From assembly GCA_028287285.1 (NCBI GenBank), contig JAQBPY010000299.1, forward strand, positions 1 through 64,000: a stretch of DNA of 64,000 bases, read 5' to 3'. Numbering within the stretch: position 1 is the stretch's first letter; each line of letters begins with the position of its first letter. Source of the DNA: Gemmatimonadota bacterium. Lineage in GTDB: Bacteria; Gemmatimonadota; Gemmatimonadetes; Gemmatimonadales; Gemmatimonadaceae. Below, piece after piece: positions 35,919 through 41,351 of the stretch. The position numbers and the translations under genes are program-made. The notes beneath the pieces were generated by a model. The model saw nothing but the letters and a program-made list of their open reading frames with translations. It was not told the DNA's origin and did not search any database.

Positions 35919-36632
35919 TCATTCGCCGAACTCGTCTGCCACCACGATGGGATCGAGCGCTCCTGTGTAGAGCGCCATGCCAATGACGACGCCCGCCAGC
36001 CCGCGATGCTCCAGGGCACGGATGTCATCCATCGTGGTCACGCCACCAGATGCCAGTACCGGAAAATTCGACAGCTCAGCGACGTCTTCCATAAGGGGAA
36101 GATCTGTCCCCTGCATCTGCCCCTCCCGATGGACCGCCGTCACGAGCAAGCCGCCAAGTGCAAGCGAGTTGAGCTCGCCCACCACGTCGAGAATGTCAAC
36201 GGGAAGCGTGTGTGCCCAGCCACGCGTGGTCACCCTCCGTTCGCGGACGTCGCACGCAACGATGATCTCACCCGGATAACGGGCCGCCAGATCCGCGAGC
36301 CACTCGGGCTCTTCAATGGCGCGGGTCCCGACGATCACACGTGATGCCCCGGCGTCGAGCAGCTCCTCGACGAGGTCACTCGATCGCACACCGCCGCCCA
36401 CCTGGACACTGATGCCGCTCGACGTGAGCAGCGCACGAACAATGGACAGGTTGGATCCACGATTCGTTGCCGCATCGAGATCCACCACGTGCAGCCGTTG
36501 AAAGCCATAGTGCTCCCACGAACGGGCGACCTCAACAGGGTTCTCGAGCCGCACTTTTTCCTGCGCGAACGATCCACCCACGAGCTGCACACACGCTCCG
36601 TCCCGGAGATCAACGGCGGGAATGGCAATCAC
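35919..36632 (-). CDS. hisA: ProFAR isomerase
   Basis: TIM-barrel isomerase of the fourth histidine step, about 237 residues. It starts VIAIPAVDLRDGACVQLVGG with the catalytic aspartate at residue 8. Phosphate-binding loops are seen at VQVGGGVRSS and VLASGGVTTMDD, and the second catalytic residue region at LVTAVHREGQM. GTG 36632 overlaps the hisH stop by four bases. Confidence 0.94.
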   Translation of the reverse strand: MIAIPAVDLRDGACVQLVGGSFAQEKVRLENPVEVARSWEHYGFQRLHVVDLDAATNRGSNLSIVRALLTSSGISVQVGGGVRSSDLVEELLDAGASRVIVGTRAIEEPEWLADLAARYPGEIIVACDVRERRVTTRGWAHTLPVDILDVVGELNSLALGGLLVTAVHREGQMQGTDLPLMEDVAELSNFPVLASGGVTTMDDIRALEHRGLAGVVIGMALYTGALDPIVVADEFGE

Positions 36633-37231
36633 GGCGTTACTCCGGTCTTGAGAAAGGCGTGCAGCAGTTGCACGCCGGCGGCAGAGCTCTTCTCGGGATG
36701 AAACTGGAGGCCAACCGTATTTCCAGCACGTACAGCCGCCGGAAAACGATCCCCCTCGTGTGTCGTCCACGCAGCCACGGCCAATTCATCCGTGGGCCGG
36801 CACACGAAGCTGTTGGCATAGTACGCCATGGACAATGGGGCCGATGCGAACAGCGCATCTCCGGCAACAGGGGTCACGTCATTCCAGCCGATTTGCGGAA
36901 CACGTGCAGCATTCAAGCGTGTCACGCGTCCCGCAATGACGCCCAACCCTTCTCCCGCTCCTTCATCACTCGCATCGAACAACAGCTGCATGCCAAGGCA
37001 GATGCCAAGTGTCGGCAGGCCACGTTGAATGGCATCGCGCATGATGCCGCGCCCAGATGCCAGTCGCTCGGCCGCCGCGCCAAAAGCACCAACGCCAGGC
37101 AGCACCAGCACGTCCGTTTCAACGGCGCGCACAGGATCCGTCTCGATCGCGAGCGAAACATCAGTCGTGTCGAGCGCCTTCGCGAGCGAGTGCAGATTCC
37201 CCGCCCCATAGTCAAAGATTGTTACACGCAT
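36629..37231 (-). CDS. hisH: Imidazole glycerol phosphate synthase, glutamine amidotransferase subunit
   Basis: Hydrolyses glutamine to feed ammonia to HisF. This class I amidotransferase of 200 residues begins MRVTIFDYGAGNLHSL. The nucleophile cysteine lies in GICLGMQLLFD near residue 82, and the His-Glu pair in LQFHPEKS near the C-terminus. The PGVGAFG oxyanion region is present. The start codon shares a base with the hisC stop (TGATG). Confidence 0.95.
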   Translation of the reverse strand: MRVTIFDYGAGNLHSLAKALDTTDVSLAIETDPVRAVETDVLVLPGVGAFGAAAERLASGRGIMRDAIQRGLPTLGICLGMQLLFDASDEGAGEGLGVIAGRVTRLNAARVPQIGWNDVTPVAGDALFASAPLSMAYYANSFVCRPTDELAVAAWTTHEGDRFPAAVRAGNTVGLQFHPEKSSAAGVQLLHAFLKTGVTP

Positions 37232-38307
37232 CAGAGCACCGGTGCCAGTCTGTCCAGCAGTCCCTGCATCATCTCCCACGGACCAACACCGATACGTAAC
37301 GCCGCACCGTTGCTTGCCGCGAGCATCGGAATCTCCAGCGGCAACCCGGTGAACGGCCGAACGAGCACACCCTGCTCCCGCAACGCAATGCCGATCTCTC
37401 GCGCCCTGGCCAGCGGCACCATCACAAAGCTCGCAGCACTTGGCAGCACCGGCAGCCCAAGAGTGGAGAGCGCTGCAGCAAGCCGATTGCGATTGGTTAC
37501 GGCGAGCGCTGCATGTTCACGCACCCAGCCCAATCCGTCCGGCGTGGTATCGAGCGTAGCGAGGACAGCGCGCTCCGCGAGGGAGCTCACCTTGTACGGA
37601 CCACGCGCGCGCTCCACGAGACGAATGATCTCGCGCGATCCCACGCCGTAGCCAACACGCAATCCCGCCAGACCAAATGCCTTGGAGAACGTGCGAACAA
37701 CGATGAGCCGGTCGTTGTTGGCCACAAGATCAGCGAACGTTTCCGGCGCAAACTCCGCGTACGCCTCATCCAGCATCACGATGCCGCGCGCACGTGCGAC
37801 CACGTACTCCACCGCCGATCGGGATATGCTGGTTGCGGTGGGGTTATTCGGCGCGCAGAGATAGGTAATCTTTGCCTCACAATCCACGAGCTGCTCGGCG
37901 TCAACATCGAAATCCGGCATCAGTGGCACTTCACGCAGTGCCAGGCCATTGAGTCGAGCGAGCACGGGGATCATCGAGAATGTCGGCACCGAGTAGGCGA
38001 TGGAGTTGCCGGTGTCGCCAAACGCGCGCATCGTGGAATCGAGCACGTCGTCCGATCCACAGCCCGTTACCACGCTCGCGTCAGTCAACTCCACGTACTG
38101 CAGGATCGCACCGCGAAGCGGCTCGGAATAGACAGACGGATATCGCGACACCGAGGATCCCATTGCCGAGGAGATCATGCGTAACGCCGCCGGCGGTGCG
38201 CCCCAGAGATTCGTGTTGTCGCTGACGTCGATGTCACACGTTGTTCCATCGGGAGCATAGAGCGGCAGCTCGCGCACGCCAGTGCGCGCCAGTTCATTCG
38301 CGCCCAT
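37231..38307 (-). CDS. hisC: Histidinol-phosphate aminotransferase
   Basis: A PLP aminotransferase of about 358 residues. The cofactor lysine is in TFSKAFGLAGLRVGYG near residue 215; YLCAPNNPTAT and IVMLDEAYAEF form the cofactor pocket. ATG 38307 lies inside the end of hisD, with a 14-base overlap, giving MGANELARTGVREL. The frame is open to 38382, but this would overlap hisD further. Confidence 0.93.
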   Translation of the reverse strand: MGANELARTGVRELPLYAPDGTTCDIDVSDNTNLWGAPPAALRMISSAMGSSVSRYPSVYSEPLRGAILQYVELTDASVVTGCGSDDVLDSTMRAFGDTGNSIAYSVPTFSMIPVLARLNGLALREVPLMPDFDVDAEQLVDCEAKITYLCAPNNPTATSISRSAVEYVVARARGIVMLDEAYAEFAPETFADLVANNDRLIVVRTFSKAFGLAGLRVGYGVGSREIIRLVERARGPYKVSSLAERAVLATLDTTPDGLGWVREHAALAVTNRNRLAAALSTLGLPVLPSAASFVMVPLARAREIGIALREQGVLVRPFTGLPLEIPMLAASNGAALRIGVGPWEMMQGLLDRLAPVL

Positions 38308-39607
38308 GAACGGCCTCCGCGAATGCACGCGCGGCCAACGCATGTCCGCCAAGTCCTTCGGCGTCGGCAAACACACCGACATCCTGCGACAGACGCGCCG
38401 CAGCCGCGGAGGAAATGCGTTGATACGTGGTCCATCGCACGAAATCCAGTGTGGAAAGTCCCGAGTGCGAGCGTGCGAGCCCGCCGGTGGGGAGCACGTG
38501 ATTCGCGCCGGTCATGTAATCACCAAATGCGACGGATGCATGCGGGCCAACGAATATGGTGCCTGCGTTCCTGATGCGATCGAGAATATTCTCTGTGTCG
38601 CCCACGACGAGCAGGAGATGCTCCGCTGCATACGCGTTCGCAAACTGAACGGCGTCGTCAAGCGAGTCAGCGTAAAGCACCGCGCCCTGGCCGGCCAACG
38701 CCTCCAATGCAACATCGGCGCGTGGCTGTGACGGAAGCAGTGATGCAATGGCCTCACCCACTGCGCGTGCAACAGGCGCGCTCGTTGCAACAACGACGAC
38801 AGCCGCCATGGGATCATGCTCCGCCTGGGCGAGTACTTCGCGTGCGACGAAGCGCACATCTGCCGAGTCGTCCGCCAACACCAATAGTTCGCTTGGCCCC
38901 GCCGGTGAATCGATCGCCACGCTGCTGGACACCTGGATCTTTGCTTCGGCCACGTAAGCATTGCCGGGCCCCACCACGCAGTCGACACGCGGCACGCTCT
39001 CGGTGCCGTAGGCCAACGCGGCGATCGCACCCGCGCCGCCCAACGCAAAGACACGATCGGCACCGGCAAGTGCAGCCGCAGCCAGGACAACGGCAGATGG
39101 TTGTCCGCTCCCACGCACTGGCGGCGAACAGACGATGATCTCGCCAACGCCGGCGACACGCGCCGGAATGACGCCCATGAGCACACTGCTCGGATACGCG
39201 GCGCGCCCACCGGGTGCATAGACCCCCACTCGTCCCAGCGCGTCCGGTCGACGTCCAACGACAATGCCCGGTTCACTTTCCGTCTCCTGAGCAATGGGGC
39301 GAAACGCCTCGTGTACGCGACGGATATTTGTGGCGGCGCGCTGCATCACACGCCGCAGATCGGGCGTCAGTGCCTCCAGCGCGGCCGCACACACGTGACG
39401 AGGCACCTCGAGCGACGCGAGGGACACGCCATCCAGCTCGACGGCCAGCGCCCGCAACGCCGCGTCGCCACCGGCCCGAACGCGTGCAATGATGTCCGAG
39501 GTCCGGTGCCGCACCACGTCATCACTCGACTGCGACCGGTCGAGCAGCGCTCGCCGGTCTGCCACAGACAGGGCCGATACCGCGCCAGTCCAACGAACGA
39601 GTGTCAT
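38294..39607 (-). CDS. hisD: Histidinol dehydrogenase
   Basis: A zinc-dependent NAD oxidoreductase making histidine from histidinol in two steps. The 437-residue protein contains VYAPGGRAAYPSSVLMGVIPA, GPGNAYVAEAKIQV, the signature around DSPAGPSELLVLAD and QAEHDPMA, and the C-terminal YMTGANHVLPTGG with the catalytic histidine. ATG 39607 overlaps the hisG stop by four bases. Confidence 0.96.
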   Translation of the reverse strand: MTLVRWTGAVSALSVADRRALLDRSQSSDDVVRHRTSDIIARVRAGGDAALRALAVELDGVSLASLEVPRHVCAAALEALTPDLRRVMQRAATNIRRVHEAFRPIAQETESEPGIVVGRRPDALGRVGVYAPGGRAAYPSSVLMGVIPARVAGVGEIIVCSPPVRGSGQPSAVVLAAAALAGADRVFALGGAGAIAALAYGTESVPRVDCVVGPGNAYVAEAKIQVSSSVAIDSPAGPSELLVLADDSADVRFVAREVLAQAEHDPMAAVVVVATSAPVARAVGEAIASLLPSQPRADVALEALAGQGAVLYADSLDDAVQFANAYAAEHLLLVVGDTENILDRIRNAGTIFVGPHASVAFGDYMTGANHVLPTGGLARSHSGLSTLDFVRWTTYQRISSAAAARLSQDVGVFADAEGLGGHALAARAFAEAVHGRE

Positions 39608-40467
39608 GCCATCAACCTCTCGATGCGCGTGACCAAAATGCCCTCGGCGCCGAGTGACTTGAGATCCGCGATCGTTCTGTAGATCGTTTCTGCCGCGACG
39701 ACAGAATGCACGGCGACGAATGCGCCGCCGTTCATGATGTCGATCACCGTTGGTCCATTGAGCCCCGGAACCACACGCTTCACCTCGTCGAGCCGTTCGC
39801 GCGGGACATTCGCCATCACGTACCGCTTTCCGCGGGCAGCGATGACGCTGGCCAGCGCGCCAACCAGCTCATCGAGCGCGCGCACGCGATTCGGGTCGCT
39901 CCGCACCGTGCGATTGGTGATCAGGCGGCTAGTGGACTCGAATACCGTTCCAAGCTCGCGCAACCCGTTCACGCGCAGTGTGGATCCCGTGGACACGAGG
40001 TCCACGATGATGTCCGCGATTCCAAGGTGTGGGGCGATCTCCGCGGCGCCCGACATGGGCACGACGTCCACGGCGATGCCGCGAGCGGCAAAGAATCGGG
40101 TGGTGATATTGGGAAACACCGTGGCCACGCGCATGCCGGCGCGCACGTCGTCAACTGCGTGCAGGCCGCTGTCGTCTCGGGCGGCGACGGCCAGGTGACA
40201 GCGGCCGAACTCGAGATCCGCGAGCTCCTCGAGGTCGCGTCCCGATTCTTGGATCAGGTCGAATCCGGTGACGCCAGCATCGGCCGCACCATCGGCGACG
40301 AATTCCGGAATGTCCTGCGCGCGCACGAACAGCGCCTCGAACTCGCCGCCCAGTGAGGCGGTAAGCGCGCGCGGGCCCGCGGAGCGGATGGCGAGGCCGG
40401 CATCCGTGAGCAGCTCCTGACACTCGTCGGAGAGGCGGCCTTTATTGGGTAGTGCGATGCGAAGCAT
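39604..40467 (-). CDS. hisG: ATP phosphoribosyltransferase, long form
   Basis: The committing enzyme of histidine synthesis. About 287 residues: the catalytic domains begin MLRIALPNKGRLSD and include the PRPP-binding DLVSTGSTLRVNGL near residue 156. The C-terminal 75 residues form the ACT-like regulatory domain (VIDIMNGGAFVAVHSVVAAETI), so this is the HisZ-independent form that histidine inhibits directly. ATG 40467 is 25 bases downstream of the attenuator terminator stem. Confidence 0.95.
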   Translation of the reverse strand: MLRIALPNKGRLSDECQELLTDAGLAIRSAGPRALTASLGGEFEALFVRAQDIPEFVADGAADAGVTGFDLIQESGRDLEELADLEFGRCHLAVAARDDSGLHAVDDVRAGMRVATVFPNITTRFFAARGIAVDVVPMSGAAEIAPHLGIADIIVDLVSTGSTLRVNGLRELGTVFESTSRLITNRTVRSDPNRVRALDELVGALASVIAARGKRYVMANVPRERLDEVKRVVPGLNGPTVIDIMNGGAFVAVHSVVAAETIYRTIADLKSLGAEGILVTRIERLMA

Positions 40468-40491
40468 GTGTGACGAAGGTCTGGTAGCAAA

Positions 40492-40521
40492 GAAAAAGGC
40501 CCGTCCGGAAAGGGACGAGCC
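40492..40521 (-). terminator. Histidine operon attenuator terminator
   Basis: On the minus strand GGCTCGTCC pairs with GGACGGGCC (nine pairs, one G-U) around a six-base loop and is followed by TTTTTCT. It is a classical intrinsic terminator between the leader peptide and hisG. Confidence 0.85.
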
Positions 40522-40561
40522 AAGGAACCGACAACTGCGCTGGGACCAGGAAGCTGGCCGC

Positions 40562-40642
40562 TTACCCCTCTGCGCGTGCGTCGCCCTGACCCGAAAGGCC
40601 ATGGTGATGATGCACGTGGTGGTGGGGGCGGGCGCTGGTCAT
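40562..40642 (-). CDS. hisL: Histidine operon leader peptide
   Basis: A 26-codon ORF, too short for normal gene calling. It begins MTSARP, then HHHVHHHH, seven histidine codons in eight, and ends DARAEG with TAA. It lies 41 bases upstream of the terminator and 95 bases upstream of hisG. By analogy with enterobacterial his operons, ribosome stalling at the His codons when His-tRNA is scarce would favour an antiterminator and let transcription enter hisG. An AGGGG...AGC stretch at the leader's end could pair with the terminator's first arm (GCTCGTCCCTT), but I have not folded it. The start codon coincides with the predicted transcription start. Confidence 0.82.
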   Translation of the reverse strand: MTSARPHHHVHHHHGLSGQGDARAEG

Positions 40643-40649
40643 GGATCGC

Positions 40650-40678
40650 AACCTATCCGGGTCATTGCCCGAGGTCAA
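40650..40678 (-). promoter_or_regulatory. Histidine operon promoter
   Basis: On the minus strand TTGACC (40678-40673) and TAGGTT (40655-40650) are separated by 17 bases. The predicted start is at 40642 or 40643, the first base of the leader-peptide ATG, so the transcript would be leaderless. Confidence 0.6.
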
Positions 40679-40757
40679 CGCCAGCGTGGTGCATGTGCTG
40701 CGGCTCATTTGGGTGTGCTGGTGCTTGGGAAGCGAGCTGATTTGCGTCTACACCCCC

Positions 40758-40775
40758 TTGTGAATAAATTCACAA
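40758..40775. promoter_or_regulatory. CRP-type operator palindrome
   Basis: TTGTGAATAAATTCACAA is a perfect dyad and contains TGTGA-N6-TCACA, the consensus of CRP-family sites. It lies 58 bases before the cupredoxin start and about 80 bases upstream of the his promoter, in the divergent region. Confidence 0.55.
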
Positions 40776-40776
40776 T

Positions 40777-40798
40777 GCCGCCCGGGGCCCCGTGCGGC
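40777..40798 (+). other. GC-rich hairpin in the cupredoxin leader
   Basis: GCCGC and GCGGC flank the palindrome CGGGGCCCCG, forming a stable stem before the ribosome-binding site TTTTTGGAGG of the cupredoxin gene. Confidence 0.4.
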
Positions 40799-40832
40799 GC
40801 AACTCACGATCAGTTTTTGGAGGCTTCAAGAA

Positions 40833-41351
40833 ATGCGGTTCTACGGTATTGCACTCCTCACGGGCGCTGCGCTCATGAGCGCGTGCGGCGGCGAGAAGAA
40901 AGCAACGGATTCAGCCGCTGCGGCGCCTGCGGCAAGCACCACCCCGGCAGCGACGACTACCCCAGCCGCCGCCGCTCCGGCAGCTGGCGCGGCAGCCGCT
41001 GCTCCGATCACCGGCAAGACGGTCGAAGTCAAGATGATCGGCGATGCCACCGGCTACAAGTTCGAGCCCGCCACCATCACCATCAAGAAGGGTGACGGCG
41101 TGAAGTTCATCATGGTCTCCGGCGGACCGCACAACGTCGCATTCCAGAACGTGGCCGATGCCGGCGCCTCGGCGCAGCTCGACGCGAACATGCCCGGCAC
41201 CGACAAGCTTGGCCCGCTGTCGTCCCACCTACTCTCCGCTCCGAACGAGTCGTACGTGGTCTCCTTCGGCAATGTGGCAGCCGGTTCGTACGACTACATC
41301 TGCACGCCGCACGCGGCGATGAACATGAAGGGCACGATCAAGGTCGAGTAA
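40833..41351 (+). CDS. Plastocyanin-like blue-copper lipoprotein
   Basis: A 172-residue lipoprotein: signal peptide ending at lipobox LMSAC, then a 45-residue Ala/Thr/Pro linker and a cupredoxin domain. Type 1 copper ligands are visible: His in SGGPHNVAF, then Cys, His and Met in YDYICTPHAAM. The domain starts VEVKMIGDATGYKFEPATITIKKGD. It probably carries electrons in the periplasm, anchored to the membrane with the flexible linker. GGAGG lies 11 bases before the ATG. The adjacent CRP-type palindrome may regulate it. Confidence 0.92.
   Translation: MRFYGIALLTGAALMSACGGEKKATDSAAAAPAASTTPAATTTPAAAAPAAGAAAAAPITGKTVEVKMIGDATGYKFEPATITIKKGDGVKFIMVSGGPHNVAFQNVADAGASAQLDANMPGTDKLGPLSSHLLSAPNESYVVSFGNVAAGSYDYICTPHAAMNMKGTIKVE

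Follow-up and report, generated by a model that had tools for sequence, protein, structure and literature searches.

We conclude that the histidine operon of the window (the whole 64,000-nucleotide stretch of Gemmatimonadota DNA analyzed here) is probably controlled by a ribosome-mediated his attenuator whose transcription is predicted to begin on the ATG of its leader peptide or about a base ahead of it; we put the probability of this reading at about 0.82. The leader ORF (Table 1) is short and carries a run of histidine codons, as expected of such an attenuator, and the genes downstream of it (hisG, hisD, a hisC-like gene, and hisH) make the amino acid that would be sensed. The hisC-like ORF as listed overlaps hisD, and its real start is probably further in. 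Most of the argument for a leaderless, or nearly leaderless, 5' end comes from the spacing between promoter and start codon, which recurs in many relatives.

Table 1. Coordinates of the features discussed, in nucleotides of the window
Feature	Position	Strand	Basis
Bacterial RNase P RNA, class A	1157-1530	minus	RF00010, 305.6 bits
hisH	36629-37279	minus	TIGR01855, E 1.8e-53
hisC-like aminotransferase	37231-38382	minus	TIGR01141, E 1.2e-69; 234.8 bits, under the curated cut-off of 276.55
hisD	38294-39607	minus	TIGR00069, E 7.7e-139
hisG, first structural gene, ATP phosphoribosyltransferase	39604-40467	minus	TIGR00070, E 7.9e-62
Segment 4, terminator 3' arm GGACGGGCC, then TTTTTCTTT	40498-40506	minus	Hairpin scan and alignment
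Segment 3, terminator 5' arm GGCTCGTCC	40513-40521	minus	Hairpin scan and alignment
Segment 2, TCGGGTCA, pairs with segment 1 or 3	40587-40594	minus	Alignment columns 21-28; single-sequence antiterminator fold of 40612-40508
Segment 1, TGGCCT, pairs with segment 2	40596-40601	minus	Alignment columns 13-18
Regulatory codon run HHHVHHHH, 7 His in 8 codons	40601-40624	minus	Sequence and locus comparison
Leader peptide ORF, MTSARPHHHVHHHHGLSGQGDARAEG and stop, 26 codons, ATG at 40642-40640	40562-40642	minus	Sequence and locus comparison
Predicted transcription start (A 40642 favored, C 40643 possible)	40642-40643	minus	Inferred from spacing and purine preference
-10 box TAGGTT	40650-40655	minus	TA..TT kept in 8/8 same-genus loci
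-35 box TTGACC	40673-40678	minus	Sequence read; TTGAC conserved across leader loci
Perfect palindrome TTGTGAATAAATTCACAA (TTGTGAAN4TTCACAA)	40758-40775		Flanked by the his promoter and by the divergent cupredoxin gene
Small cupredoxin (plastocyanin-like), divergent from the his operon	40833-41351	plus	TIGR02656, E 2.5e-21, below the curated cut-off

The preliminary description had placed a TTGACC-N17-TAGGTT promoter just before the leader ATG, and the arrangement was confirmed on the minus strand, where TTGACC is followed by 17 bases, TAGGTT, the seven bases GCGATCC, and then the ATG. The usual distance from a -10 box to the start would put the first transcribed base at C 40643 or A 40642. The A is favored because transcripts mostly start at purines, which account for 97.1% of leaderless starts in Streptomyces lividans (PMC8079986). 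Taken alone, this predicted promoter is a weak match: TAGGTT agrees with TATAAT only at T, A, and the final T, and a generic promoter scan of positions 40300 to 41200 returned no site because its rule demands 9 of 12 matches. Its credibility comes from conservation.

The comparison drew on 110 hisG loci, 30 from one search and the best 80 of 206 relatives from another; the six best HisG relatives (77 to 84% identity) belong to Gemmatimonadetes or Gemmatimonadaceae metagenome-assembled genomes. One locus (L029) lacks the 5' end of hisG, and removal of exact duplicates from the other 109 left 99 distinct upstream regions, some near-duplicates still among them. As in the window, a His-run leader ORF with a start codon is present in 94 of these 99 regions, from Gemmatimonadota, Myxococcota, and Eisenbacteria by record titles, the start codon having been picked blind to the promoter as the nearest ATG before the His run, or else GTG, or else TTG. 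Three of the five regions that missed end at contig edges (L052, L066, and L108, with 20, 77, and 190 bases upstream). Another, L006, has a looser His run that the rule passed over, together with TTGACC, N17, TAGGTT, and a gap of 7. The last, L030, has a distant HisG, and its leader (MTMRRHLARHHHHGHMTCPGAVS, gap 8) sits further up: at this place (L224, G037:C135:15600-17400), a leaderless-type His leader is followed, by eye, by a HisI-like ORF, upstream of hisG. Two records carry leaders at odds with their titles, a Myxococcus-type leader in one titled Comamonas (L046) and a Gemmatimonadota-like leader in one titled Candidatus Kuenenia (L093).

In leaderless mRNAs, a TA-like (-10) signal precedes the start codon by about 10 bp and takes the form TAnnnT in high-GC groups (PMC3160421); the window has such a signal at a gap of 7 bases. 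With the promoter motif defined as a TTGACA-like box (at least 4 of 6 matches), 15 to 19 bases, and TANNNT within 90 bases of the start codon, 62 of the 94 leader loci have the full motif, at gaps of 5 to 11 in 60 of them and of 19 and 23 in the other two. Gaps of 4 to 10, into which the window falls, occur at 59 of the 94 loci, whereas 100 dinucleotide shuffles gave 0.58 of them on average and never more than 3; at any gap, the shuffles contained 4.2 promoters on average, against the 62 observed. The pentamer TTGAC lies 34 to 41 nt before the start codon at 73 of the 94 loci; of 93 control stretches immediately upstream, one contains it. At 12 further loci, mostly Myxococcota, it lies 45 to 52 nt before the start, the rule having taken the second of two in-frame GTG codons (the earlier one is at 36 to 37), and at 9 it is absent within 75 bases. 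In an alignment of eight same-genus loci, the spacer has diverged around a preserved TTGACC, a preserved TA..TT, and a preserved start codon, which is GTG at one locus and ATG at the other seven.

Most of the 32 loci that lack the full motif are Myxococcota-like (22). These keep TTGAC, with the start codon about 36 to 38 bases after its first T, and have -10 regions (TAACCC, TACTCA, TACTGA) without the final T; a Myxococcus xanthus record (L075) has the layout too, its -10 box being weaker. Eisenbacteria-labelled loci are mixed, two with only TTGCGC (L067 and L071) and one whose full motif has a gap of 11 (L051). On the assumption of a start at a purine 5 to 8 bases after the -10 box, 28 of the 62 loci would have a 5' UTR of 0 nt and 29 one of 1 to 4 nt; the predicted value is -2 at 3 loci and 12 or 16 at the other 2. 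The preliminary description had set the start on the ATG or one base before it; the comparison supports a predicted 5' UTR of 0 to 4 nt, in the genome of the window and in many relatives, and the exact position is still a prediction.

In the window, the hairpin GGCTCGTCC-CTTTCC-GGACGGGCC (40521 to 40498) is followed by the T tract TTTTTCTTT, which gives the intrinsic terminator expected between a his leader and hisG, and a terminator-like hairpin with a T tract lies between the His run and hisG at all 94 leader loci, against 17 of 94 base-shuffled ones. An alignment of 68 of the 94 loci, from which near-duplicates (by shared 6-mers) and N-containing sequences had been dropped, has a consensus fold of two parts: a small hairpin (1:2, in which GGCCC pairs with GGGTC) that follows the last His codon at once, and the terminator (3:4). 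Together the two show covariation, with 95.5% of cells paired and 30 double-change cells, and neither value is reached in any of 500 shuffles; for helix 1:2, 91.6% of cells are paired over the 68 sequences, and double changes occur in 2 of its 6 pairs. Segment 2 (ACGGGTC) also complements segment 3 (GGCCCGT), with 92.3% of cells paired and at most 44.4% in slid controls; this antiterminator pairing has no covariation beyond shuffles in the 68-sequence alignment. In a duplex test, the antiterminator ranked in the top 5% against shuffles of the same locus at 34 of 94 loci, and the window is not one of these. The 2:3 form of the window, at -36.5 kcal/mol with the terminator 3' arm omitted, is no better than shuffles, and the same is true of the single-sequence folds of the window. 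A four-segment attenuator fits the alignment, in which the recurring peptide stretch GPTGRG probably reflects a constraint on the RNA and not a function of the peptide.

Three other accounts of these observations have to be weighed. The nearest one overlaps with the reading that we prefer and differs in having a very short 5' UTR (1 to 4 nt) with near-terminal initiation, not a strictly leaderless start. It is suggested by gaps of 9 to 11 at 22 of 53 nonredundant loci, by the predicted UTRs of 1 to 4 nt at 29 of 62 loci, and by the possible start at C 40643 in the window, where the gap of 7 and the A at 40642 nonetheless favor 0 nt. The functional difference may be small, as the authors of the S. 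lividans study call starts at 0 to 3 nt leaderless (PMC8079986). We regard this account as possible, with the odds some way against it. Chance lies at the other extreme: the promoter-like site would be a coincidence and the ORF a random His-rich frame. The escape of the window promoter from the generic scan and the unexceptional single-sequence folds of the window would agree with it. The elements co-occur in relatives far above shuffles, however, and we judge a chance promoter joined to a chance His-rich ORF to be refuted already by these comparative data, leaving it a negligible probability.

The remaining account has a real but leadered attenuator, transcribed from another promoter upstream, in which GGATAGG would direct ribosomes to the leader ATG in the manner of a Shine-Dalgarno sequence. 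This heptamer overlaps the -10 box and does resemble a Shine-Dalgarno sequence, and the stretch before the ATG in the window (ACCCGGATAGGTTGCGA) forms a duplex of -5.3 kcal/mol with the anti-Shine-Dalgarno sequence. In this respect the window is an exception in degree among the loci. Locus L044, with AAAAGGATA ahead of its ATG and no TTGAC, also points this way and may itself be leadered. Across the 53 nonredundant promoters, in contrast, the middle bases of the -10 box vary (the T, A, and final T are invariant by selection), and a role for TAGG as a Shine-Dalgarno sequence is disfavored because no GG is kept. Moreover, Shine-Dalgarno 4-mers precede the leader start at chance frequency (6 of 94 loci, 6.33 expected from shuffles), and the conserved TTGAC 17 to 18 bases further up would be needless for a Shine-Dalgarno sequence. 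Such 4-mers precede hisG at 19 of 94 loci, and the mean duplex energies (-1.57 for the leader, -2.01 for hisG, and -1.82 for shuffled hisG) do not separate the classes, so that duplex energy taken alone weighs neither way. Overall, we consider the leadered account very unlikely.

On the preferred reading, a leaderless or nearly leaderless leader, the switch would operate as follows, according to its anatomy and the known his mechanism (PMC3896937), from which we infer the steps. A ribosome would have to load on a 5'-terminal AUG with no Shine-Dalgarno sequence to guide it. If charged His-tRNA is plentiful, this ribosome would pass the His codons, segments 1 and 2 would pair behind it, and the terminator (3:4) would then halt transcription ahead of hisG. 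With charged His-tRNA scarce, the ribosome would stall in the His run and cover segment 1, so that segment 2 would pair with segment 3, no terminator would form, and the operon would be transcribed. A stronger proposal is that the his attenuators of Gemmatimonadota and Myxococcota form a distinct class, their promoter and start codon locked together because the switch includes leaderless loading. We think this rather unlikely; if it were true, the leader would sense both His-tRNA and the ease of starting at a 5'-terminal AUG (e.g., the abundance of 70S ribosomes under stress).

This group seems to make wider use of leaderless starts, because matches to a promoter pattern exceed background at gaps of 4 to 8. 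The pattern, TTGAC-N18-TANNNT-N(0-30)-ATG, has 81 matches in four genomes, against 17 for the reversed pattern, a few matches sharing one promoter. The gap is 4 to 8 in 31 matches (6.2 per position), 0 to 3 in 9 (2.25 per position), and 11 to 30 in 35 (1.75 per position), and three of the 81 are his leaders. Counts of TANNNT alone, in the window and in 400 kb of one genome (G030), were set aside as too weak for a general leaderless signal; before ORF starts in the latter they have only a slight excess, at gaps of 5 to 7, and it was the addition of TTGAC that gave the clear excess. Of 150 genomes in the phylum, 56 contain the pattern with two His codons added and 2 contain it reversed; not all of the forward matches are his leaders. 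The same promoter and a His leader were found in another family of the same order (L222 and L223) and in another family of the same class (L221), in each case ahead of a hairpin and of an ORF that resembles HisG by eye; the hairpins of L221 and L222 have a T run, that of L223 has none. In the genome of the window itself, a site of this type (L225; G000:C346:15500-17700, minus strand) has TTGACA-N17-TAACGT and an ATG 8 bases later that opens a frame of at least 663 codons (MANTTIIRIPVSGMTCAACQ...), the start of which resembles a copper-transporting ATPase; it is a candidate for another leaderless gene. Centre-ORF scans of 30 loci each, taken from longer lists, gave candidate Trp leaders at 2 of 30 trpE loci and a candidate branched-chain leader at 1 of 30 ilvB-like loci, none of them convincing.

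Upstream of the his promoter lies a perfect palindrome, which we take to resemble a Rex or CRP/FNR operator. With up to 2 mismatches, it is found in 39 of 94 hisG upstream regions, against 0 of 94 shuffled ones. Of the 94 leader loci, 49 hold a cupredoxin relative within the stretch fetched, 35 of the 39 with the palindrome as opposed to 14 of the 55 others, and because of this co-occurrence the palindrome is probably an operator of the cupredoxin gene. A role as his operator was set aside, as the palindrome travels with the divergent gene. At gathering scores, the only Rfam match in the whole window is the RNase P RNA.

The enteric his leader has a 5' UTR. The hisL attenuator of Escherichia coli and Salmonella has a His-codon leader peptide, alternative hairpins, and an intrinsic terminator before the his genes (PMC3896937). 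The window resembles enteric hisL (RF00514) in these points, its alternative hairpins being predicted, and differs in that its start codon coincides with the predicted start point of its promoter; no match to RF00514 (His_leader) was found in 40440 to 40720 up to an E value of 1. Outside Proteobacteria, the his attenuators of Firmicutes have His leader peptides with a terminator and an antiterminator (PMC9413887); leaderless starts are not mentioned in the available text of that paper, and "gemmatimonad" and "myxococc" have 0 occurrences in its main text. A review reports leaderless his operons in Corynebacterium glutamicum (cg0911-hisN, hisEG, and hisHA-impA-hisFI) and, in its available text, no His-rich leader ORF for hisDCB (PMC3896937).

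Leaderless attenuator peptides are documented for other amino acids. In Sinorhizobium meliloti, the trpL attenuator RNA (rnTrpL) has its 5' end at the ATG of the leader ORF (PMC7298713), much as is predicted here; it concerns tryptophan and a 14-aa peptide, and the paper states the 5' end, whereas that of the window is a prediction. S. lividans leuL, trpL, ilvL, metL, and thrL are leaderless leader ORFs with regulatory codons, several of them followed by hairpins, and they serve other amino acids, with no his among the eight listed (PMC8079986). The ilvBNC operon of C. glutamicum has a three-hairpin attenuator, its H1 called an antiantiterminator, that is discussed in terms of leaderless mRNA initiation (PMC11857589); it differs in its branched-chain amino acids and its phylum. 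According to a review, mycobacterial polycysteine leaderless short ORFs act as attenuators that control downstream genes (PMC9031893); they share with the window a run of codons for the sensed amino acid and differ in that this is cysteine and that they are described as regulating the translation of downstream genes. The mechanism had been called unusual beforehand, and this is somewhat too strong for leaderless attenuator peptides as such, given trpL, the Streptomyces leaders, ilvBNC, and the polycysteine ORFs. Among the literature matches listed (subscription papers mostly outside their scope), we recognized no leaderless his leader peptide; nor did we recognize, among the matches listed, his attenuation or leaderless attenuators in Gemmatimonadota or Myxococcota. 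The window thus appears to hold a well-supported new case of a leaderless-type attenuator peptide and not a new mechanism.

The case would extend leaderless attenuators to his operons and to phyla for which no mapped example was found. Attenuation requires a ribosome in step with RNA polymerase from the first codons, and a leaderless start drops the Shine-Dalgarno loading step, which raises the testable question of how ribosomes can load in time to act on a terminator whose far end lies about 145 nt past the predicted start. Myxococcus xanthus, in which the layout recurs, can be grown and manipulated. The arrangement would also aid annotation, as promoter and leader start predict one another.
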